From a virus, in IMG/VR virus record IMGVR_UViG_3300023210_000011, positions 1-64,000 of that record: a stretch of DNA of 64,000 nt; one strand, 5' to 3'. The position numbers and the translations under genes were made by a program. Within the stretch, counting starts at the first letter, position 1. Every line of letters begins with the position of its first letter. The notes beneath the pieces were generated by a model, which was given only the letters and a program-made list of their open reading frames with translations, searched no databases and was not told the origin of the DNA. Positions 3,891-54,940 of the stretch are shown here, piece after piece.

Positions 3891-3920
3891 AGGATGCGGG
3901 CCCCGAAGGGCCCGCATCCT
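3891..3920 (-). terminator. UUCG-loop terminator hairpin
   Basis: Perfect 12-base arms AGGATGCGGGCC / GGCCCGCATCCT around a six-base centre containing UUCG on the transcribed strand. It begins at the stop codon of the gene ending at 3920 and separates two operons. Confidence 0.75.
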
Positions 3921-21901: not shown

Positions 21902-22363
21902 TCAGGAGGCGGAGCGGAGCGCCTTGATGCGCTCCGTCTCCGCGTTCTTCTGCTTGACCTCGAGCTCACCCTCGCGCGTCTGCGCGAGGGTGAGCTGCGC
22001 CTCGGCGAGGCGCAGCTGCGCCTCCGCCTCGGTCTCCCGCACCGCCGCCTCCTCGGCGGCGACGTCGAGCGCGCGCATCGCGACGCGCTCGGCGACGGGC
22101 AGGACCGCCGCCGTGAGATTGTTGAGACCCTTGAGGCTCACCTGGAGGGCCCTGCGGCCCTCCTTGGCGAGATTCGAGCGGAGGGCCACGTAGCCCTCCG
22201 CCCCGACGGAGGTGGCCAGGGCCACCTCCGCCTCGGCCATCTTACTGGCCAGCGTGATCTCGGCGAGGCCCAGGGCCTCGCCGACGTCCAGGGCCCGCAG
22301 GCCCAGGATGCGGACGAGCTTGCGCTCGCCCTCGTCCGACTTCATCCGCTTCTTCCGTCCCAT
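21902..22363 (-). CDS. Alpha-helical coiled-coil protein, 153 aa
   Basis: Starts MGRKKRMKSDEGERKL and is almost wholly helical; residues about 105-150 (AEEAAVRETEAEAQLRLAE, QTREGELEVKQKNAETER) show clear heptads. Likely an oligomeric scaffold. Monocistronic after P13. Confidence 0.6.
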   Translation of the reverse strand: MGRKKRMKSDEGERKLVRILGLRALDVGEALGLAEITLASKMAEAEVALATSVGAEGYVALRSNLAKEGRRALQVSLKGLNNLTAAVLPVAERVAMRALDVAAEEAAVRETEAEAQLRLAEAQLTLAQTREGELEVKQKNAETERIKALRSAS

Positions 22364-22914: not shown

Positions 22915-23028
22915 TCAGAGGTTCAGGAGGGCGTGCAGTTTGCGCTGCGCCGCCGGGCGAGAGGTCGCGAAGACCACCTCGACACTGCCGTCGCTCATCA
23001 CAAACCGAAACGCACGAAGCTGGGGCAT
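22915..23028 (-). CDS. Small protein, 37 aa
   Basis: ATG 23028 has a strong GGAGGG and opens MPQLRAFRFVMSDGSVEVV followed by a basic helix (SRPAAQRKLHALLNL). It is the sole gene of its promoter-terminator unit, which supports it despite its length. Confidence 0.5.
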   Translation of the reverse strand: MPQLRAFRFVMSDGSVEVVFATSRPAAQRKLHALLNL

Positions 23029-25160: not shown

Positions 25161-25176
25161 GTTCCCTCCTACTCCC

Positions 25177-25202
25177 TTATGCCGTGTTGTTTCGGCCTTT
25201 TG
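25177..25202 (-). promoter_or_regulatory. Phage promoter-like element P17
   Basis: Leftward CAAAA, 14 bases, GGCATAAG, 17 bases upstream of the nucleotidyltransferase ATG; a second AAATCTTAG box lies further upstream. Confidence 0.65.
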
Positions 25203-25224: not shown

Positions 25225-25248
25225 GGCGGGCCCCACCCGGGGCCCGCC
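25225..25248 (-). terminator. Terminator hairpin of the structured RNA
   Basis: GGCGGGCCCC / GGGGCCCGCC, ten pairs with a short loop. Confidence 0.75.
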
Positions 25249-25545
25249 TGGTCTCTTGGTCTCACACGCCCACGTGGGGCCAAGTGAGCTCGTGGGAGAG
25301 CACAGGACTCCCTTCTTCTACCTCCCGGCAAGCCGCCCAACTGGACAGCCTGCGCACAAAGGGGGCAGGAGTCCTGCGCCGTTACCGTACTACCAGCGAC
25401 CCCTCACCTTCCGGTGAGACAACACGCGCCCCGCGCTTTCGCGCTTAAGGTCCCGCCAAGGGACCAGGGTATCTCCCTTTCGGGGGCACGGTTGAGAGCG
25501 ACGTCACCACTGATGTTGGGCGCCCTCTGGTCACTATGTTCCTCT
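25225..25545 (-). ncRNA. Candidate structured non-coding RNA (about 320 nt)
   Basis: This unit runs from promoter P18 to its own terminator without a convincing gene. The leftward transcript can form GGTCCC/GGGACC (25,449-25,465), GCGC-GAAA-GCGC (25,433-25,444), CTCACC-GGAA-GGTGAG (25,403-25,418), a long-range 12-pair helix between 25,368-25,379 and 25,300-25,311, and CCCACG/CGTGGG within 25,270-25,296. Two loops are GNRA type, common in tertiary contacts of large RNAs. A 29-codon GTG frame (25,445-25,534) is the only alternative. No known class recognised. Confidence 0.6.
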
Positions 25546-25554
25546 CTATACATA

Positions 25555-25580
25555 TTATGCCCGAATACGGGCACTATTTA
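25555..25580 (-). promoter_or_regulatory. Phage promoter-like element P18
   Basis: Leftward TAAAT, 14 bases, GGCATAAT; drives the structured-RNA unit. Confidence 0.75.
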
Positions 25581-25591
25581 AGCCAGCGGCC

Positions 25592-25621
25592 CCGGCCCGC
25601 CCCCATTCAGGGGCGGGCCGG
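25592..25621 (-). terminator. Terminator hairpin overlapping a stop codon
   Basis: CCGGCCCGCCCC / GGGGCGGGCCGG, twelve pairs; the stop of the gene at 25,607 sits in the loop. Confidence 0.75.
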
Positions 25622-29057: not shown

Positions 29058-29460
29058 TGGTGGACCTGGTGGGAGTCGAACCCACGTCCGCAGCATCATT
29101 CCTCAGTCCGTTCGCTACATCCCCGTACTTGACCCAGCGGGGCGGGTGTCCCAGGTGGCTTCCCCTGGCTCCAGTTGTCCTTCACGCGAGGCTCTAAAGG
29201 CCTCGCCGCATTCCAGCCCGCTGAGCAACTTCCTCTCTCTTGAGCTTGCGAAGTCTCGTTTTACACCTGGTGAAGCTCGACCAGCTTCCTCACCAAGCAC
29301 CGGGGCTCACGGAGTCCCCGGACTTCTCTCACGCGGCCGCGGCCACGGGAGCGAAGTGGTTGTTGTTGTTGGCAATTGTCGTTTGCCTCACCGTTAGGCC
29401 GGTGAGCACGCCGCAGCGCGAACTTTCGTGCAGATACCCCGTCGAAACCGTTTCAGGCCC
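29058..29460 (-). ncRNA. ssrA: Transfer-messenger RNA (tmRNA)
   Basis: The 5' end GGGCCTGAAACGGTTTCGACGG and the 3' end GGACGTGGGTTCGACTCCC...CAGGTCCACCA match the tmRNA tRNA-like domain; GGGCCTG pairs with CAGGTCC (one G-U) and CCA is encoded. A PK1-like stem CTCACCG/CGGTGAG lies before the tag reading frame. The best tag, from GCC at 29,373 to TGA at 29,329, is ANNNNHFAPVAAAA (14 residues). tmRNA rescues stalled ribosomes and marks products for proteolysis. Phage copies are known mainly in large phages. Tag start is inferred. Confidence 0.9.
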
Positions 29461-40886: not shown

Positions 40887-41150
40887 ATGCCGCCACAGAA
40901 GAAGACCATTGCGGTCCTGCTGACGCAGGTGACGGAGCTCCGGCAGCGTGCTGCGGTCCAGACTGCCCTCGTGCAGATCTTGCGGACCCGGTATCTGCCG
41001 AGGGATGGGGTCCCGGAGGCCCTGGCCCAGATTGACTGCGAGGGGGCACCCGTCTCTGCCGACATCATCGAGGAGATGGTGGAGGAGTTGGAGGATGTGG
41101 TGTCGGAAATCAACAAGGAAGTCCGCTCGATTCTGAGCCAGGAGGCCTGA
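40887..41150 (+). CDS. Helical hypothetical protein, 87 aa
   Basis: ATG 40887 with ACGGAGG. MPPQKKTIAVLLTQVTELR and DIIEEMVEELEDVVSEINK are helical, suggesting a coiled-coil protein. Coupled to the next gene. Function unknown. Confidence 0.5.
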   Translation: MPPQKKTIAVLLTQVTELRQRAAVQTALVQILRTRYLPRDGVPEALAQIDCEGAPVSADIIEEMVEELEDVVSEINKEVRSILSQEA

Positions 41151-41531
41151 ATGCCATCGCGCACCGAACGACTCGAAGCCAAGTTCACTGAGCTCGAGCA
41201 GCGCATCGCCCTACTGGAGAAGATCCAGTCCGAGGGCATCGATCACCTGATCACCGAGATCCAGAGGCTGTCAGAGAATGACGGAGTACTCGGGGAAGTC
41301 GCAGAGCAGCATGACAACCTCCTCGCAGCACTGCGAGCACTGCTCGATGAGAAGAAGGTCGTGAGTGACGCCGAGGTCACCGCGAAGACCCAGGAGATCT
41401 CAGATCTCCGAGAGCGTGCTCAGAAGAGCCGGGACCAAGAGGCCGAGCTCCGGCAGGTGGCCTTCCGCGCAGAGGAAGCAGCCAAGGAAGAGGCAGGTCA
41501 CCCGAAGGAAGCGTTCATCTTCGGGAGCTAA
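41151..41531 (+). CDS. Coiled-coil protein, 126 aa
   Basis: Long heptads throughout (EAKFTELEQRIALLEKIQ, EISDLRERAQKSRDQEAEL). A scaffold or fibre-like role is possible. Last gene before a bidirectional terminator. Confidence 0.55.
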   Translation: MPSRTERLEAKFTELEQRIALLEKIQSEGIDHLITEIQRLSENDGVLGEVAEQHDNLLAALRALLDEKKVVSDAEVTAKTQEISDLRERAQKSRDQEAELRQVAFRAEEAAKEEAGHPKEAFIFGS

Positions 41532-41541
41532 GGCCTTCGAG

Positions 41542-41573
41542 GCGTACGGGGGTCCCGAAGGACCCCCGTACGC
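41542..41573. terminator. Bidirectional terminator
   Basis: GCGTACGGGGGTCC / GGACCCCCGTACGC, fourteen perfect pairs around CGAA, between convergent genes ending at 41,531 and 41,580. Confidence 0.85.
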
Positions 41574-41579
41574 TCTTGC

Positions 41580-42065
41580 TCACCGCTGGCCGCACTGCCC
41601 GCAGTAGCTCTCGGTCTCTGTTCCGTGACGGCAGAAATCTCCAGACTGGAGAATTCGCTGTTGGATGGCATCTTCTCTCTCGACAAGAACTCCATCGAGA
41701 GTCTCTACCCGCAACTCCATATTGCCGAGGTCTCCGTCCCACATGCGGTCTCGCACGATGCGGTGTGCCCGAGAGTCTACGAAGTCGCGCGGGCCTGTCT
41801 GCTTTACCCAGTCTCGTGCCGGCCAAGAGGCAAAGCGCCAGCGGACCTGGAAGGTAGCAGGCGAGGGTGAGGATGGCTGATCGGGCTTCCGGACCCGGAC
41901 CCATGCGAGGGTCCAGACTTCTCCTGTCTCTGGATCTTTCCGTCCCAGGTCTTCGTCAGTGGCGAAGGTCTGGTCACTCGAGTCGATGATCGTGGAGATC
42001 TCACGATCGAAGAGCCCGCAGGGCTCAAACGTGTCGAGGTCGGGGACCTCCAGGGTACGGGGCAT
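41580..42065 (-). CDS. Hypothetical protein, zinc knuckle at C-terminus, 161 aa
   Basis: Beta-rich body (VWTLAWVRVRKPDQP, TFQVRWRFASWPARDW) and a C-terminal CRHGTETESYCGQCGQR knuckle. Last gene of the ligase operon. Confidence 0.55.
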   Translation of the reverse strand: MPRTLEVPDLDTFEPCGLFDREISTIIDSSDQTFATDEDLGRKDPETGEVWTLAWVRVRKPDQPSSPSPATFQVRWRFASWPARDWVKQTGPRDFVDSRAHRIVRDRMWDGDLGNMELRVETLDGVLVEREDAIQQRILQSGDFCRHGTETESYCGQCGQR

Positions 42066-42106
42066 CAGTCCTCCAGGTATTTGCTGTGCCAGTCCGGGAT
42101 CTTCAT
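42065..42106 (-). CDS. Possible leader peptide, 13 aa
   Basis: ATG 42106 with GAGG encodes MKIPDWHSKYLED; its stop overlaps the next ATG (TGATG), a typical reinitiation arrangement. Confidence 0.3.
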   Translation of the reverse strand: MKIPDWHSKYLED

Positions 42107-42336
42107 GTAGACCTCAAAACGTGATTGAAATGGCGCGTGGTTCGGCGTGTCCTGGTGAGGAACCCCGAGAACAGGGGGGAGTAGCCACAGCTCTTGCACT
42201 GCAGCGTGGGGGTCAGCTGGTAGCCGCCCGGAGGGGGCGTGCCTCGCTGGTTCCACGGGCACTGGACGAGCACCTGGCCCATCTTGTAGTGCTTCTTTCC
42301 GCAGTCGGGGCAGGGAATGTAGGAAGGACGCCTCAT
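42103..42336 (-). CDS. Zinc-ribbon protein, 77 aa
   Basis: MRRPSYIPCPDCGKKHYKM and LQCKSCGYSPLF form CPDC...CKSC, a ribbon about 40 residues across. The tail is basic (TRTRRTTRHFNH), so it may bind nucleic acid. Confidence 0.6.
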   Translation of the reverse strand: MRRPSYIPCPDCGKKHYKMGQVLVQCPWNQRGTPPPGGYQLTPTLQCKSCGYSPLFSGFLTRTRRTTRHFNHVLRST

Positions 42337-42599
42337 GTCGTTCCCCACCGCTCTACGGCCGTGAGCGGTGCCTTGCATCCCCAGAACCGGAGCCGAATGA
42401 CCAGTCCCCGGCCCCGGTTCTGCTCCCAGGCTCCGTGCCTGAAGTCGAGCACTCCGGCGTACACGCGCTCGGCTACTCGACGCTCAATCGGAGCACCCGG
42501 GCAGTGCGTGGTGAGCTCTCCTTCTGCGAGGTCGCAGACCACGCACTCAGAGATGCCCTCGTGTCCGGGGACATCTCTGAGCTTGTGCTCTCGGGACAT
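42333..42599 (-). CDS. Hypothetical protein with CVVC, 88 aa
   Basis: MSREHKLRDVPGHEGISEC begins a segment with CVVC and a C-P near residue 33, then a beta-rich end (GRGLVIRLRFWGCKAPL). Possible metal site. Directly follows the stop of the gene above. Confidence 0.5.
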   Translation of the reverse strand: MSREHKLRDVPGHEGISECVVCDLAEGELTTHCPGAPIERRVAERVYAGVLDFRHGAWEQNRGRGLVIRLRFWGCKAPLTAVERWGTT

Positions 42600-42764
42600 C
42601 TACCGCCCGCCCCAAGGGAGGAGAGTGCCTCCCCGGATCTCGCGTTCTACGCCGCACTCACAGCGGCACCACCAGGTCACTTGGCCGTTTTTCTTTCCGT
42701 GTCTTCGAAGTACAGACCACTTCCCATAGGCGTGCCCAGTTTCATCTTTCACTTTTGCTGCCAT
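42600..42764 (-). CDS. Small zinc-binding protein, 54 aa
   Basis: ATG 42764, inside the end of the ligase gene, encodes MAAKVKDETGHAYGKWSVL followed by WWCRCECGVEREIRGGTLL. The YGKW-S/T-V...C-x-C-x-C-G pattern is common in short phage proteins and at the N-termini of HNH homing endonucleases, where it likely binds DNA. No nuclease follows it here. Confidence 0.55.
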   Translation of the reverse strand: MAAKVKDETGHAYGKWSVLRRHGKKNGQVTWWCRCECGVEREIRGGTLLPWGGR

Positions 42765-44052
42765 AGGTCAGACTCTCCTCGATGCACTCTTCTGCCTCCT
42801 TGTCGTCGCGAAATCGAACGACCCGAGGGAACTGAAGTGCGTTGGTGGCCTCCCCGTCGGCGATGAAGGTCCGGCTGGCGAATTGAATCTCTGCGACCAC
42901 AGGGAACACGCCAGGAGTGCTGAGCCAGTTCCTGTGGTCCTGGGTGAGTCCTCCTCCGCAGTCGCACAAGTAGACCAGTTCTCCGTCGGCGTCGTATTGG
43001 TGGAGGGCTACGGACCCTACCTTTCCACGGTTCTTCCCGCGGCCGTACTTGCCGACGCCCTGTTCGGGGTCCCATAGGCAGACAGCATCCAGTTCGAAGA
43101 CGGGCTTCAGCTTGCAGCAGGTGTTCGGGCGGTCGGGCTTGCCGCGCAGGTTGAAGGACTTCTCGCCGTAGGTGGAGTGCGGGTCCACGATGACGAAGCC
43201 CTCCCACCCCTGAGCGACCAGGGTGTTGCGGAGTCCCTCGACCCCCTTGTAGTCGCCTTCGATGAAGGTCTCCGGCGGATGTACGAACTGGCCGGAGAAC
43301 AGGTCCGCGTGGTCCAGGCGGAACCGGTACTGCATCTCTCCGAGCAGCTGGAGCCCGGCAGCCCAGGCCACGTCCCAGCAGATGAAGTGCAGGAACCCGG
43401 TCTTCTCCTGGATCTCGAGGGCCTTCGGAGTCAACGACTTCATCACCTTCGCGACCCGCCATCGATCATCCGCGTCAGGCCCGTTCACGATCTCGCCCAA
43501 CAGGATGGTGTTGTTCGGGATCTCGTCGTTCTCCTCGATCTCCGTGGCGATGTGGTCGAAGCGCTCGCGCCAGGTGTGCTGATCTTCGAGGTGGTGATTC
43601 GTCAGCATCCGTCGGCTGAAGAAGATCGCCTCCCCCTCGGAGTTCTTGACGATGACCATCATCTCGCCATCGTACTTCCGCACCGCCCACGCCTTCCCGT
43701 CCTCGACCATCTTCTCCATCTTCTTGTTCAGCGAGTTCTGAGGCTTGTAGAAGGACAGGTTGTCCACGATGCCGTGCTCGAAGGGGCTGTAGTCAGCGGT
43801 CTCCTCCAGCTTCGTGTCGTAGCCCTTCCGCATCTTCTTCGAGATCAGGCGATCCATCATGTTCTGCGCGTCTTGCTCAGCCGAGACCTCGTTGCTGCGC
43901 CCCGCGTGCTTGGCGGTTCCGTAGTCCGTGACCTCCTGCATCTTCCCGTCGAGCTGGCCGAAGCGCGTGTGGACCGCGTTCCCCTCGACAGCGATTTCCC
44001 AGACCCGCACAGCGCCGGTGCGCGCACGGTTATAGAGTGTGGTGTAGTTCAT
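42742..44052 (-). CDS. ATP-dependent DNA ligase with N-terminal WGR domain
   Basis: The first about 80 residues resemble a WGR domain (YNRARTGAVRVWEIAV, HTRFGQLDGKMQEV). The ligase core has the active-site lysine in VRKYDGEMM (K126), LLGEIVNGP (motif III), WEGFVIVDP (motif IV) and CKLKP (motif V). It seals nicks with ATP, forming an enzyme-AMP intermediate; WGR domains bind DNA or nicks in PARP enzymes. Start ATG 44052 follows GGAGG. First gene of its operon. Confidence 0.85.
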   Translation of the reverse strand: MNYTTLYNRARTGAVRVWEIAVEGNAVHTRFGQLDGKMQEVTDYGTAKHAGRSNEVSAEQDAQNMMDRLISKKMRKGYDTKLEETADYSPFEHGIVDNLSFYKPQNSLNKKMEKMVEDGKAWAVRKYDGEMMVIVKNSEGEAIFFSRRMLTNHHLEDQHTWRERFDHIATEIEENDEIPNNTILLGEIVNGPDADDRWRVAKVMKSLTPKALEIQEKTGFLHFICWDVAWAAGLQLLGEMQYRFRLDHADLFSGQFVHPPETFIEGDYKGVEGLRNTLVAQGWEGFVIVDPHSTYGEKSFNLRGKPDRPNTCCKLKPVFELDAVCLWDPEQGVGKYGRGKNRGKVGSVALHQYDADGELVYLCDCGGGLTQDHRNWLSTPGVFPVVAEIQFASRTFIADGEATNALQFPRVVRFRDDKEAEECIEESLTYGSKSER

Positions 44053-44067
44053 TGTGCCTCCGGGGGA

Positions 44068-44093
44068 CTTATGGCCGGGAAAACTGAAATCTT
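44068..44093 (-). promoter_or_regulatory. Phage promoter-like element P25
   Basis: Leftward AAGAT, 14 bases, CCATAAG, drives the ligase operon; it overlaps the start of the divergent gene at 44,071. Confidence 0.6.
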
Positions 44094-44274
44094 GCAGCGC
44101 GCCGATGTGGACATCGATGCCTTCGACAAGTGGTTTCAGGAGCAGGGAGCTCAGCCTCTTGTCAGATCAGAGCGCGCTATCATCAAGACATTCTTGGTGG
44201 CGCTCCGGTCAGGCAAGCTCGCGCCCCCCGCACACGAGGGCACGACTGAAATGCCGCCGTGCCGGCTAACGTGA
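44071..44274 (+). CDS. Small protein, 67 aa
   Basis: ATG 44071 (MAGKTEILQRADVDIDAFD) with a G-rich site four bases upstream. The centre (PLVRSERAIIKTFLVALRS) resembles a common small phage protein with an E-R/K-A-I/L-L-K-T-F/Y-L helix. Encoded opposite the ligase promoter. Function unknown. Confidence 0.5.
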   Translation: MAGKTEILQRADVDIDAFDKWFQEQGAQPLVRSERAIIKTFLVALRSGKLAPPAHEGTTEMPPCRLT

Positions 44275-44283
44275 GAGCCGCTA

Positions 44284-44309
44284 CGCCCCCGCACCGAAGT
44301 GCGGGGGCG
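44284..44309. terminator. Bidirectional UUCG terminator
   Basis: CGCCCCCGCAC / GTGCGGGGGCG around CGAA between convergent genes at 44,274 and 44,319. Confidence 0.85.
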
Positions 44310-44318
44310 GGTTTCCGC

Positions 44319-44669
44319 TCATCCGACCTGGGCGTACCCATCTCGGACCAGCCCCAGTCGGCGGGGCTGGTCCATGATGATGTGACGCACCTTTCTCGAC
44401 ACATCCTCCTTACTCCTGTTGGGCCAGCCTTCCGCCAGCCACCACATCGCCTCCCTGCCGGTCATCAAGACCGAGATGTCGAGCACCTCGATCTTGACGT
44501 CGAGGAACTCAGGCCTTTGAGTAACTGGCTCCCTGCCCGTCCCCGACGACAAGTTCTTCGCGAACTTGTCGTCGTCCCGGCGGGCCTGGCGGCCCGCCTG
44601 GTTCTGGCTGTCGATTGCCTGGATGGCGCCGACAGCCGCGGCAACGATGCCGCAAGTCACAAAGAACAT
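44319..44669 (-). CDS. Putative membrane-anchored protein, 116 aa
   Basis: ATG 44669 with GGAGG. The N-terminal MFFVTCGIVAAAVGAIQAI is hydrophobic (signal anchor), followed by a basic/polar linker and a soluble part (IEVLDISVLMTGREAMWWL). Single-gene unit after P26. Confidence 0.55.
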   Translation of the reverse strand: MFFVTCGIVAAAVGAIQAIDSQNQAGRQARRDDDKFAKNLSSGTGREPVTQRPEFLDVKIEVLDISVLMTGREAMWWLAEGWPNRSKEDVSRKVRHIIMDQPRRLGLVRDGYAQVG

Positions 44670-44690
44670 CGTTCCTCCTGTGTACTATAC

Positions 44691-44716
44691 TTATGCCCGA
44701 TTCCGAGGTGTAATCC
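44691..44716 (-). promoter_or_regulatory. Phage promoter-like element P26
   Basis: Leftward GGATT, 14 bases, GGCATAAGTATAGTAC; it ends exactly at the base before the tape-measure ATG on the other strand. Confidence 0.6.
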
Positions 44717-47700
44717 ATGATTACCGCCCAGCAGGTGGCCCAGGGAATGGCCCTTCAGCAGCAGCAGCACTCGATGCTGACCGCTGGCGCGTCCGGAATG
44801 ATGCAGGCACAGCCTGCGATGGGCATGTCGCAGTACCCGCCGCAGTTCAGCTACGCGATGCCGAGCAACCCCAACCACGGTCGTGCGGCGCTGGGCAGTT
44901 CAATGGTGATGGGCGGCATGACGGGCGGCATCAACGCTGCCAGCTCCATCGCCAACCTCGCGGCGATCCCGGCGACTGCTGCGGGAATCGGCAGTTTGGG
45001 ATTCGCAGGGGCCAACTTCCTCGGACTGGGCGGCGGCGCTACCGCGGCCTCTCTCGGGGCCATGTCCGGAGGATTCATGACAGGGGCTGCCCTTCCCATG
45101 GCGGGCCTCGGCGTTGCTGCGGGCACGGCCTCGGCGATGAGATCTGGCATGCAGCAGACGCAGCAGGTCAACCAGCTCTTCGGCGGGATGCAGTTCGCCA
45201 ACATGGGCGGAGACCCTCGAACAGGTCGAGGATTCAGCCAGAACGACCTCGGGCAGATTCAGAGAGGAATCCGGGCTATCAACGCCAACAATCCCTTTGT
45301 GTCCATGTCGGATGCGCTCCGCTCATCCGAGCAGTTCACCGATATGGGGATGCACCAGGGGGTGCAGGACGCCGAGAAGATGGCGCGCAAGCTCACAGAG
45401 ATGGGCAAGACGATGCACCAGATGGCGCGGATCATGGGCACTTCCATGGAGGAGGCCGGCAAGGCGATGGGTTCGATGCGTTCTTCCGGGTTCTACTCGG
45501 CCTCCGATGTCATGGGGAACACGGCAGACATGAACTTGATGCGCGGCTACGGCATGACCTCAGACCGGTTCGCCGGCATGCAGGCTTCCGGGGCTGCCGC
45601 GACTCGAGGAGCACAGCTCTCCGGACGCGCAGGCGCCGGATTCGTCACGGGGGCTGCCCAGGACATCATGAGCGGCATCCGTACGGGCGCGCTGTCTGGT
45701 GAGCAGATCATGGACATCACAGGGGGCCGGGATCCCCTGGAAGCGGCACAGATGATGGCGCAGCAGTCCCTCGGGGCCACCATGCAGGGGCTCTCCGGTC
45801 CTGGAGGGACTGCGATGTTGGCCGCTATGGGGACCATGAAAGACGGGAAGTTCACGGGAGGGATCGACGCAGGGGTGATGCGTCAGATGGCCGAAGGGAA
45901 GCTGGGCCTCCGGGACCTGAGTGCCCGAGGCCAGAAGAAGGTCGGGTCAAGTCGGAGCTCGCAGGTGTCCTTTGTCGCGAACCAGAAGGACATCATGGAT
46001 ACTGCTCTCCAGAGTCCCGAGATGTCGGAGGCGCTGCTCAACGTCATCCGAACCGAGGCCCGTGAGATGGGGGACGAGAGCGAGGAGTACCTGCAGGTCC
46101 TGGCACAGACACAGTTCAACATGGATCGACGCCAGTTCCGCATCCTCTCTCGCATGGCTGAAGATCGGAAGAAGGGCCACCGTGAGCGCCTGTCGAGCCT
46201 GAAGCGCGAGGTGGACACTTCATCGCGCTCTGCCTACCTCCGTGAGAATCGCACCCTCGGTGGATTTGTCCAGAAGGCGACGGGCGGGGCCGCAGATCTG
46301 TGGCAGCAGGGCGCCGTTGACTTCTTCAGTGACGCCTCTCGGGACATTACCGAGGGGTTCCAGGAGGCCGAGCGTCGGATCTACGGGGACACGGAGGTTT
46401 CGGTCTCCAGATCTGCCATCCAGGACGTAATCATGGCGGGGAAGGGCAACTCCTCCGCGCTGTCGAAGGTGAGCCCCACGGTGGCTGCACGCCACGCGAT
46501 GTCCACGGGGAACATGGATGCGTTCACCGGGACGCTGGGGGTCTCGGATGAGCTCCTGGGCAGTGTAGACCTCGAGGGGGTCAACCAAGGAGCGCGGGCG
46601 GCGATGTCTGCCGAGCGTGGCGGAGTGGCGGCCCGTAAGCTGGGCCTCCCAAGCGGGCGGAGTGCCAAATTGGAAGCCCTGCGCGCCGAGGTGCGCGACC
46701 AGGTAAGGGGGAAGGGGTCAGTTGCAACCCCTGCCGAGATCGACGCCATCATCGCGAAGTCCGGGGCTGCCGGGGCGCGGTTGATTGCCCAGGACAAGTC
46801 CCAGACCCGGGTGTGGGAGGACGGATGGAACAAGGTCCCATCCTTCGGCGCCAGAGGCGGTGCCGCGGACAGTGTCATCGCCAGTCAGAAGAGCCTGGCG
46901 GCCGAGTCGGGCCTGGACGACCTCTCCAACGAGGCCGCTGGCGCCGCCGTGGCCTTCTTGGGCTCTCGTATGGTGGCAACCGGCGCCGTGCTGGCGGTGG
47001 TAGGAGGGCCGATGGGTTGGGCTGCGGGAGCAACGACCATCGCAGCTGGAGTGGCCGTTGGCGGCGTGGGGATACTCATGGGTTTGGGGGACTCAGACCT
47101 GGATGACATGCAGGAGGACTTCACCTCTGGCAAGGCGGGCACCGAGCTTGTTGCCGACTACGCGGACAAGGACAAGCAGGTCAAGATCGATGAGATCATC
47201 GCGGACGCCGCCGCGTCATCCAACACCCTGGCCGAGGGCCGAGAGAAGGCCGCCAAGAACCTCTCAAAGCTCTTGGGCCGTCCGGTGTCCGCGCGAGACG
47301 TGGAGATCGCGGACACGGTGATGCAGAAGCGCACCAACAAGAATGCGGCGGAGCGCAAGACCCTCACTTCCGCAGAGCGGGAGAAGATGGTCAAGGTCGC
47401 CAAAATGGGGAAGGCGCAGGTCGGCCTGGTCGCCACCAAGCGGGTAGCGGAGAGCCTCAAAGGTCTCGGGAACGAGATCGGAATGGCGGATGTGGATGAG
47501 ACTACGAGAGCTGCATTCCGGAAGGCCACCTCGGGGCTTGCCGGAGGGGATGGAGACGCCTTCGAGAACCTGGGCTCCGCCCTGCGTGCAGCTGCGGGAG
47601 GAGGATTTGAGGTCGGGGAGAATGCCTCGGGCACACGGCAGATCTTCGGGCTGGGCGTGGACGCCTACAACGAGCTGCAGGGGATGGGAGAAGACGGCCT

Positions 47701-54135: not shown

Positions 54136-54940
54136 CCTCCGGAGCCGACTCGAGAAGATCGCGGCAAAGGACCCGTACCAGTTCCCGACTTCTTGGACGT
54201 CCGGGCAGCCGATGTCGTCTCGGGCCGCTCAAGATCTGGACCTGTGGCGGCAGTGGAAGACCTCCAAGGAAGACCCAGAGAAGCTGGCTCCGCTCCTCAC
54301 GTCGCTCAATCCAGTCATCTCTTCGCAGGTGAACCGGCACCGGGCCCCGAGGATCTACAAGCCTGCGATCGAGGCCCACGCGCGCACCCTGGCAGTCCAG
54401 GCACTCCGTCGGTATGACCCGACCCGGAAGGCTGCGGTCGCATCGCACGTCCAGAACAACCTCAAGGGTCTCAACCGCTACGTGAAGAAGCATCAGAACT
54501 TCACGCGGATCGTAGAGGCACAGGCCAACAAGATCGGGCCGTACTCGCGGGCCAAGGCTGTGCTCGAGGAGGAGCTGGGCAGGGAGCCCACCACCTTCGA
54601 GCTCGCAGACAAGCTCAAGATGAGCCCGAAGAAGGTCGAGCGCCTGGCGAAAGAGATCCGGCCGGACATCTTCAACCTGCCGGCAGTCGGAGAAGATGCG
54701 TTCGAGTCCTCCCCCTTCGAGGAGGAGTCCCCCAGGCACCGCGAGGTCATCGCGATGCTGCCCTACGAGCTCACAACCGACGAGACAGCAGTGTTCAACT
54801 ACCTCTTCGGTAAGGGAGGGAAGCGCAAGATGGAGGTGATGAACGACATCGCGCGTGAACTCGGGTGGTCTGCGTCCAAGGTCTCCCAGGTCAAGAACTC
54901 GATCTCGAAGAAGTACCGCGACTACCTGAGAAGCTTCTGA
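54128..54940 (+). CDS. Sigma-70-family transcription factor
   Basis: 270 residues. A region-2-like segment includes LRRYDPTRKAAVASHVQNN and RYVKKHQNFTRIVEAQ; a region-3-like helix has EEELGREPTTFELADKLKM; a region-4 helix-turn-helix lies near the C-terminus (MNDIARELGWSASKVSQVK). The order and spacing fit sigma-70/FliA proteins, which direct RNA polymerase to promoters. It sits among tail genes, so it would be made late or packaged. N-terminus ADLRSRLEKIA echoes the shared motif. Confidence 0.75.
   Translation: MADLRSRLEKIAAKDPYQFPTSWTSGQPMSSRAAQDLDLWRQWKTSKEDPEKLAPLLTSLNPVISSQVNRHRAPRIYKPAIEAHARTLAVQALRRYDPTRKAAVASHVQNNLKGLNRYVKKHQNFTRIVEAQANKIGPYSRAKAVLEEELGREPTTFELADKLKMSPKKVERLAKEIRPDIFNLPAVGEDAFESSPFEEESPRHREVIAMLPYELTTDETAVFNYLFGKGGKRKMEVMNDIARELGWSASKVSQVKNSISKKYRDYLRSF

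Follow-up and report, generated by a model that had tools for sequence, protein, structure and literature searches.

A probable structured non-coding RNA gene with two GNRA loops beside the CCA-adding enzyme and tmRNA genes of a phage

INTRODUCTION

RNA C and RNA D of phage T4 are orphan small RNAs of a large phage; they are independently transcribed, lie in an early or tRNA-type region, and have no known role. ROOL and GOLLD are considerably larger than the ~320 nt considered here. Both are large phage-associated structured non-coding RNAs with multibranch folds, and their exact function is unknown (PMC12286853).

Here, we analyze a window of 64,000 nucleotides, comprising positions 1 to 64,000 of the IMG/VR virus record IMGVR_UViG_3300023210_000011 (131,435 bases, 63% G+C), the other half of which encodes a terminase large subunit, a DNA polymerase, and a DnaB-like helicase. 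The predictions suggest that the minus strand of the window probably carries a non-coding RNA gene with a defined fold that is an orphan in the collections searched (Table 1). Like ROOL and GOLLD, this RNA is phage borne and structured, with a multibranch predicted fold; in contrast, those RNAs are conserved across many genomes and represented in Rfam, whereas the RNA described here is an orphan of ~320 nt. Phage tmRNA (RF00023) is likewise a non-coding RNA and is encoded in the same cluster and on the same strand, but it differs by its tRNA-like domain and tag frame. The likeness to T4 RNA C and RNA D is one of setting, not of sequence comparison, and the RNA described here is longer and has a branched predicted fold.

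Table 1. Coordinates in the window of the candidate RNA, its predicted substructures, and neighboring features
Feature	Positions	Strand	Basis
Inferred non-coding RNA, ~323 nt	25225..25547	-	No gene-like codon usage in any frame; no protein-family match; fold z -5.4
Putative promoter, family TAAAT-N13/14-GGCATAATA, reading leftwards	25551..25580	-	Motif scan
Domain 1, predicted four-way junction without unpaired linkers	25392..25539	-	Partition-function fold, mean pair probabilities 0.82-1.00
P1	25539-25529/25401-25392	-	Mean pair probability 0.82
P2	25528-25517/25509-25495	-	Mean pair probability 0.82
P3, with three inner hairpins	25494-25483/25432-25420	-	Mean pair probability 0.98
P4	25419-25413/25408-25402	-	Mean pair probability 0.94
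Hairpin GCGC-GAAA-GCGC	25433..25444	-	Predicted fold and GNRA hairpin scan
Hairpin UCUCACC-GGAA-GGUGAGG, 6 Watson-Crick pairs CUCACC/GGUGAG (25,418-25,403) plus U-G	25402..25419	-	Predicted fold and GNRA hairpin scan
Domain 2, long-range helix 25379-25367/25312-25300 enclosing hairpin 25355-25343/25338-25327	25300..25379	-	Mean pair probability 0.98 and 0.99
Hairpin P7, 25294-25281/25276-25263	25263..25294	-	Mean pair probability 0.76
Terminal hairpin GGCGGGCCCC/GGGGCCCGCC, 10 G-C pairs, loop GGGU; proposed terminator	25225..25248	-	Fold and hairpin scan
12-bp GC hairpin ending the preceding minus-strand gene (stop 25,607), setting that gene apart from the RNA unit	25592..25621	-	Hairpin scan
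Promoter-like site GGCATAAGGGAGTAG of its own before the CCA-enzyme gene	25165..25183	-	Motif scan
Next gene, CCA-adding tRNA nucleotidyltransferase, 479 aa	23721..25160	-	PHROG 2244, E 4.9e-57; Pfam PolyA_pol, PolyA_pol_RNAbd, and HD domains
tmRNA, tag ANNNNHFAPVAAAA; same gene cluster as the RNA, 3.5 kb off	29,058-29,460	-	ARAGORN and Rfam (RF00023)

RESULTS

Promoter and coding potential

All of the RNA features lie on the minus strand, and the predicted RNA reads from ~25,547 down to 25,225. The initial annotation named no strand; we assigned the RNA to this one because the promoter, the GNRA loops, and a 29-codon frame make sense only there. The initial annotation had placed a promoter, P18, upstream of the RNA. 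The corresponding motif is present as TAAATA (25,580-25,575), 13 nucleotides, and GGCATAATATG (25,561-25,551), also written TAAATA-N13-GGCATAATATGTATAG, and its position would set the start of transcription at ~25,547. With up to three mismatches allowed, the promoter motif matched 2 sites in the window but none in 100 shuffles. The putative promoter is among five near-identical, top-scoring copies of its family (25,561, 23,100, 21,019, 12,258, and 11,725), all of which are on the minus strand, and the weaker family members that precede other genes are likewise on the minus strand throughout. The other half of the record holds a single family site, at 101,874. Two relatives (G005 and G010) keep the counterpart of this site, in front of a different set of genes, where it reads GGTCATAAGTAT and follows an A-rich TAAA-like box. 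The conservation of this site and the distribution of the family therefore support a real phage promoter class, and its assignment as early or middle would follow from the densely clustered short genes that use it. An independent phage non-coding RNA gene would be expected to have a promoter of its own and, on motif evidence, this stretch appears to have one. Elsewhere in the window, 54,212-54,940 (plus strand) encodes a protein that contains sigma-70 region 3; it is a candidate sigma factor of the phage and might recognize one of the promoter classes.

Such a gene would also be expected to lack coding potential, which is what we found. For every frame of 29 to 65 codons tested in the RNA stretch, the codon score fell beyond the range of genes or at its margin, and a PHROG search of these frames gave no match. 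As a control, the 37-aa neighboring gene at 22,915 gave a gene-like score of 0.18. The transcript could nevertheless be the messenger of a short peptide, encoded by a 29-codon GTG frame (25,534-25,445, minus strand) that has the Shine-Dalgarno-like sequence GAGAGG ~7 nt upstream of its GTG. However, the codon score of this frame is -0.21, compared to 0.17 +/- 0.09 for in-frame gene stretches of that length, none of which scores as low, and a purine-rich transcript start is common to most promoters of the family, even where no start codon is in place. We therefore consider a short-peptide messenger highly improbable, and the earlier observation that no good gene lies between the promoter and the terminal hairpin held up.

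Two further promoter-led stretches were observed in the window. The stretch at 27,650-27,224 (minus strand) is seemingly non-coding; its 5' hairpin is very strong and its 3' half resembles a tRNA (GGGGGUUCGAGUCCCCCUCCUCACC), with a weak tRNA-Sec match of 19.7 bits that is below the cut-off. The third promoter-led stretch, at 21,006-20,688 (minus strand), is ~320 nt long and has a 13-bp hairpin at its end; no clear gene and no Rfam match were found in it.

Boundaries and neighboring genes

The RNA had been described as ending in a ten-pair terminator. The 10-bp, all-GC hairpin is indeed present, but the minus-strand sequence after it, ATCATGCCGAAA (also given as AUCAUGCC), has no U-tract. Several of the phage's genes end in comparable minus-strand hairpins, in some cases with C(UUCG)G loops, and a hairpin-type terminator at 25,248-25,225 is therefore plausible. 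Intergenic hairpins with C(UUCG)G loops occur on the minus strand only, at window positions 3,907, 17,633, 23,704, 41,559, and 44,298, and are likely terminators without U-tracts.

The gene directly downstream of the RNA stretch, on the same strand, is that of the CCA-adding enzyme. The stretch might thus be a cis-acting leader of this gene, in which transcription reads through past the hairpin and alternative folds choose between a stop at 25,225 and continuation. The position of the stretch and the absence of a U-tract after the terminal hairpin are in keeping with a leader, as is the sequence CCUGGUC (25,468-25,462), which could pair with GACCAGG (25,253-25,247) beside that hairpin. However, this alternative pairing has a probability of 0.00 in the predicted ensemble, and the distant relative L002 apparently has other genes, and no such leader, upstream of its CCA-enzyme gene. 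In addition, a separate promoter-like site at 25,183 serves the CCA-enzyme gene itself and speaks against a simple leader. Taken together, we regard a role as a leader as unlikely.

The presence of a tmRNA gene in the same cluster indicates that this phage does encode non-coding RNA. No tRNA genes were found in the whole record, despite the CCA-adding enzyme and the tmRNA.

Predicted fold and genomic controls

The minus strand of the stretch has a predicted folding energy of -172 kcal/mol (z -5.4), and none of 100 shuffles was as stable. In the partition-function fold, mean pair probabilities are 0.76-1.00 for most helices. The helices, the GAAA and GGAA loops, and the 12-pair long-range helix reported in the initial annotation are all recovered in this model on the minus strand, and the long-range helix (25,379-25,368/25,311-25,300) includes one G-U pair and is part of a predicted 13-pair helix with a mean probability of 0.98.

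We compared these elements with shuffled sequences and with other windows of the genome. Two GNRA loops on stems of at least 4 bp occurred in 0 of 400 shuffles (mean, 0.06) and in 2 of 301 genome windows, a scanned set that includes the RNA stretch, so that these 2 may be its own. The 12-bp long-range stem is unusual as well: one of such length was found in 2 of 200 shuffles and in 10 of the 301 windows. Of the GNRA hairpins in the window, 6 of 13 on the minus strand are intergenic, compared to 1 of 12 on the plus strand, an excess that fits RNA-level structure on the minus strand.

The energy of the fold is less distinctive. When folds were scored against shuffles, 10 of 187 same-length sense-strand windows of the genome were at least as good, placing the RNA in about the top 5%, and 15 of 301 genome windows equaled it on both the count of confident pairs and long-range pairs. 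The fold energy is unremarkable for this genome because the neighboring minus-strand genes are themselves rich in hairpins: inside the minus-strand genes at 10-31 kb, perfect hairpins occur at 1.24 per kb, compared to 0.08-0.19 per kb in most of the record's other genes, and 18 were observed where permutation of synonymous codons predicts 5.35. These data bear on a further alternative, namely, that the stretch is a spacer whose structure is unselected or only generally selected, in a region that favors hairpins in all its transcripts, and that the fold is a by-product with no specific function. We consider this alternative doubtful. The GNRA loops are specifically enriched in the RNA stretch, its architecture is branched and long range and does not consist of simple perfect hairpins, and a full-strength promoter motif precedes ~320 nt that contain no gene, all of which speak against a by-product. 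The initial argument that dense helices plus GNRA loops are typical of large functional phage RNAs is thus weakened with respect to helix density, since the coding genes of the region are nearly as structured. The case instead rests on the enrichment of GNRA loops, the promoter, and the lack of a gene. More generally, in a region this rich in hairpins, fold energy is not by itself enough to recognize a non-coding RNA.

The hairpin-rich gene set occupies window positions 10,000-31,000 and 41,000-45,000 on the minus strand, the region of the promoter family, with ~10 times the hairpins of most other genes. In these genes, stems containing G-U pairs number 20 in the sense and 12 in the antisense orientation. 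The gene at 21,902-22,363 (minus strand) is packed with perfect hairpins of up to 15 bp, and the fold predicted for its first 300 nt surpasses synonymous shuffles by 10 SD.

Known RNA classes and relatives

In Rfam 15, no family reaches its gathering cut-off on the RNA stretch, and a permissive cmscan to E 10 gave only weak matches, scattered and of 10-21 bits, none of which came near its gathering score and most of which involved flanking hairpins; the best of these, on a flanking hairpin, has 21.4 bits against a cut-off of 50. This agrees with the earlier statement that the RNA matches no recognized class. For RNase P RNA, the one match was RNaseP-T, at 10.8 bits against 60, on a neighboring hairpin. 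No covariance-model match to ROOL or GOLLD was obtained, and SRP RNA, 6S RNA, and group I introns gave no Rfam signal even to E 10. ARAGORN and Rfam find just the tmRNA at 29,058-29,460, and the RNA stretch has neither a tRNA-like domain nor a tag frame. A size of ~320 nt, GNRA loops, and linkage to translation-related genes would suit a highly diverged RNase P, SRP, 6S, ROOL, GOLLD, or packaging RNA, but with every match so far under its gathering score we judge membership of a known class very unlikely.

Searches by blastn, nhmmer, and covariance models identified no homologue of the RNA in phages, plasmids, Rfam, the rest of the record, or the IMG/VR relatives reached outside the records near this one. 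The RNA was found in none of seven contigs of terminase relatives (79-100% protein identity), and the stretches read from four of the terminase relatives held no gene of the 1-33 kb part of the window. The best relative for the RNA region is IMGVR_UViG_3300028177_000003 (G001), whose CCA enzyme is 49% identical; no copy of the RNA was detectable in it by blastn, nhmmer, or covariance models. This distant relative has a tmRNA of its own, with the tag ANNNNAFRAAA, and was the only relative retrieved with the tmRNA pattern as bait. Single-sequence covariance models R1 and R2 gave no significant match besides the query itself, and R1 had no match in 200 genomes from the phylum to which a Gemmatimonadetes metagenome-assembled genome contig with a related CCA gene belongs. 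No relatives were found via two long proteins encoded in the plus-strand half of the window, and four matches to the promoter pattern in IMG/VR were AT-rich chance hits. The absence of the RNA from the relatives' contigs is no evidence against function.

A strongly folding stretch of 750 nt at 101 kb of the record resembled a second large RNA, but it probably consists of small coding genes. A promoter that is conserved in relatives precedes probable small zinc-finger-like genes (L011:2066-2880, L034:7060-7825, and L035:4113-4868, all minus strand), and the minus strand of the relatives folds unusually strongly (z -13.6 and -7.1) though it is probably coding.

DISCUSSION

The promoter motif, the lack of a coding signal, the GNRA excess, and a well-defined predicted fold were all obtained by computation. 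The explanation that we favor, with a probability of about 0.5, is a stand-alone, untranslated, structured RNA of the minus-strand small-gene ("early") region that acts in trans. From these features we infer the ends of the transcript, its termination, its folding in the cell, its action in trans, and its partner, as follows. Transcription would begin near 25,547 from the GGCATAAT promoter of the phage and would mostly stop at the 25,225 hairpin. The untranslated product would have two folded domains, namely, a four-way junction that carries the GAAA and GGAA tetraloops and a long hairpin, followed by a 3' hairpin that may also protect the end of the RNA. The RNA would then most likely work by virtue of its folded shape, serving as a scaffold or decoy, and its partner may be a host or phage RNA-binding protein, or a component of translation, during takeover. 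We propose action in trans because of the independent putative promoter, the separation from the next gene, and the setting beside a tRNA-repair enzyme and tmRNA.

A more speculative and rather doubtful extension is that the stand-alone RNA represents a new class of phage RNA, compact and of two domains, in which a perfect four-way junction is combined with two GNRA loops. Such an RNA would be made in large amounts early in infection and would capture or remodel a component of host translation or RNA processing, and in the gene cluster around it the messages, too, would be under selection for dense hairpins.

If real, this structured phage RNA would have an architecture not seen before, and it would lie next to a tRNA-repair enzyme and a tmRNA in a phage in which no tRNA genes were detected. 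The hairpin-rich coding messages nearby raise the question of why, in a DNA phage, the RNAs of one transcription class are kept folded.
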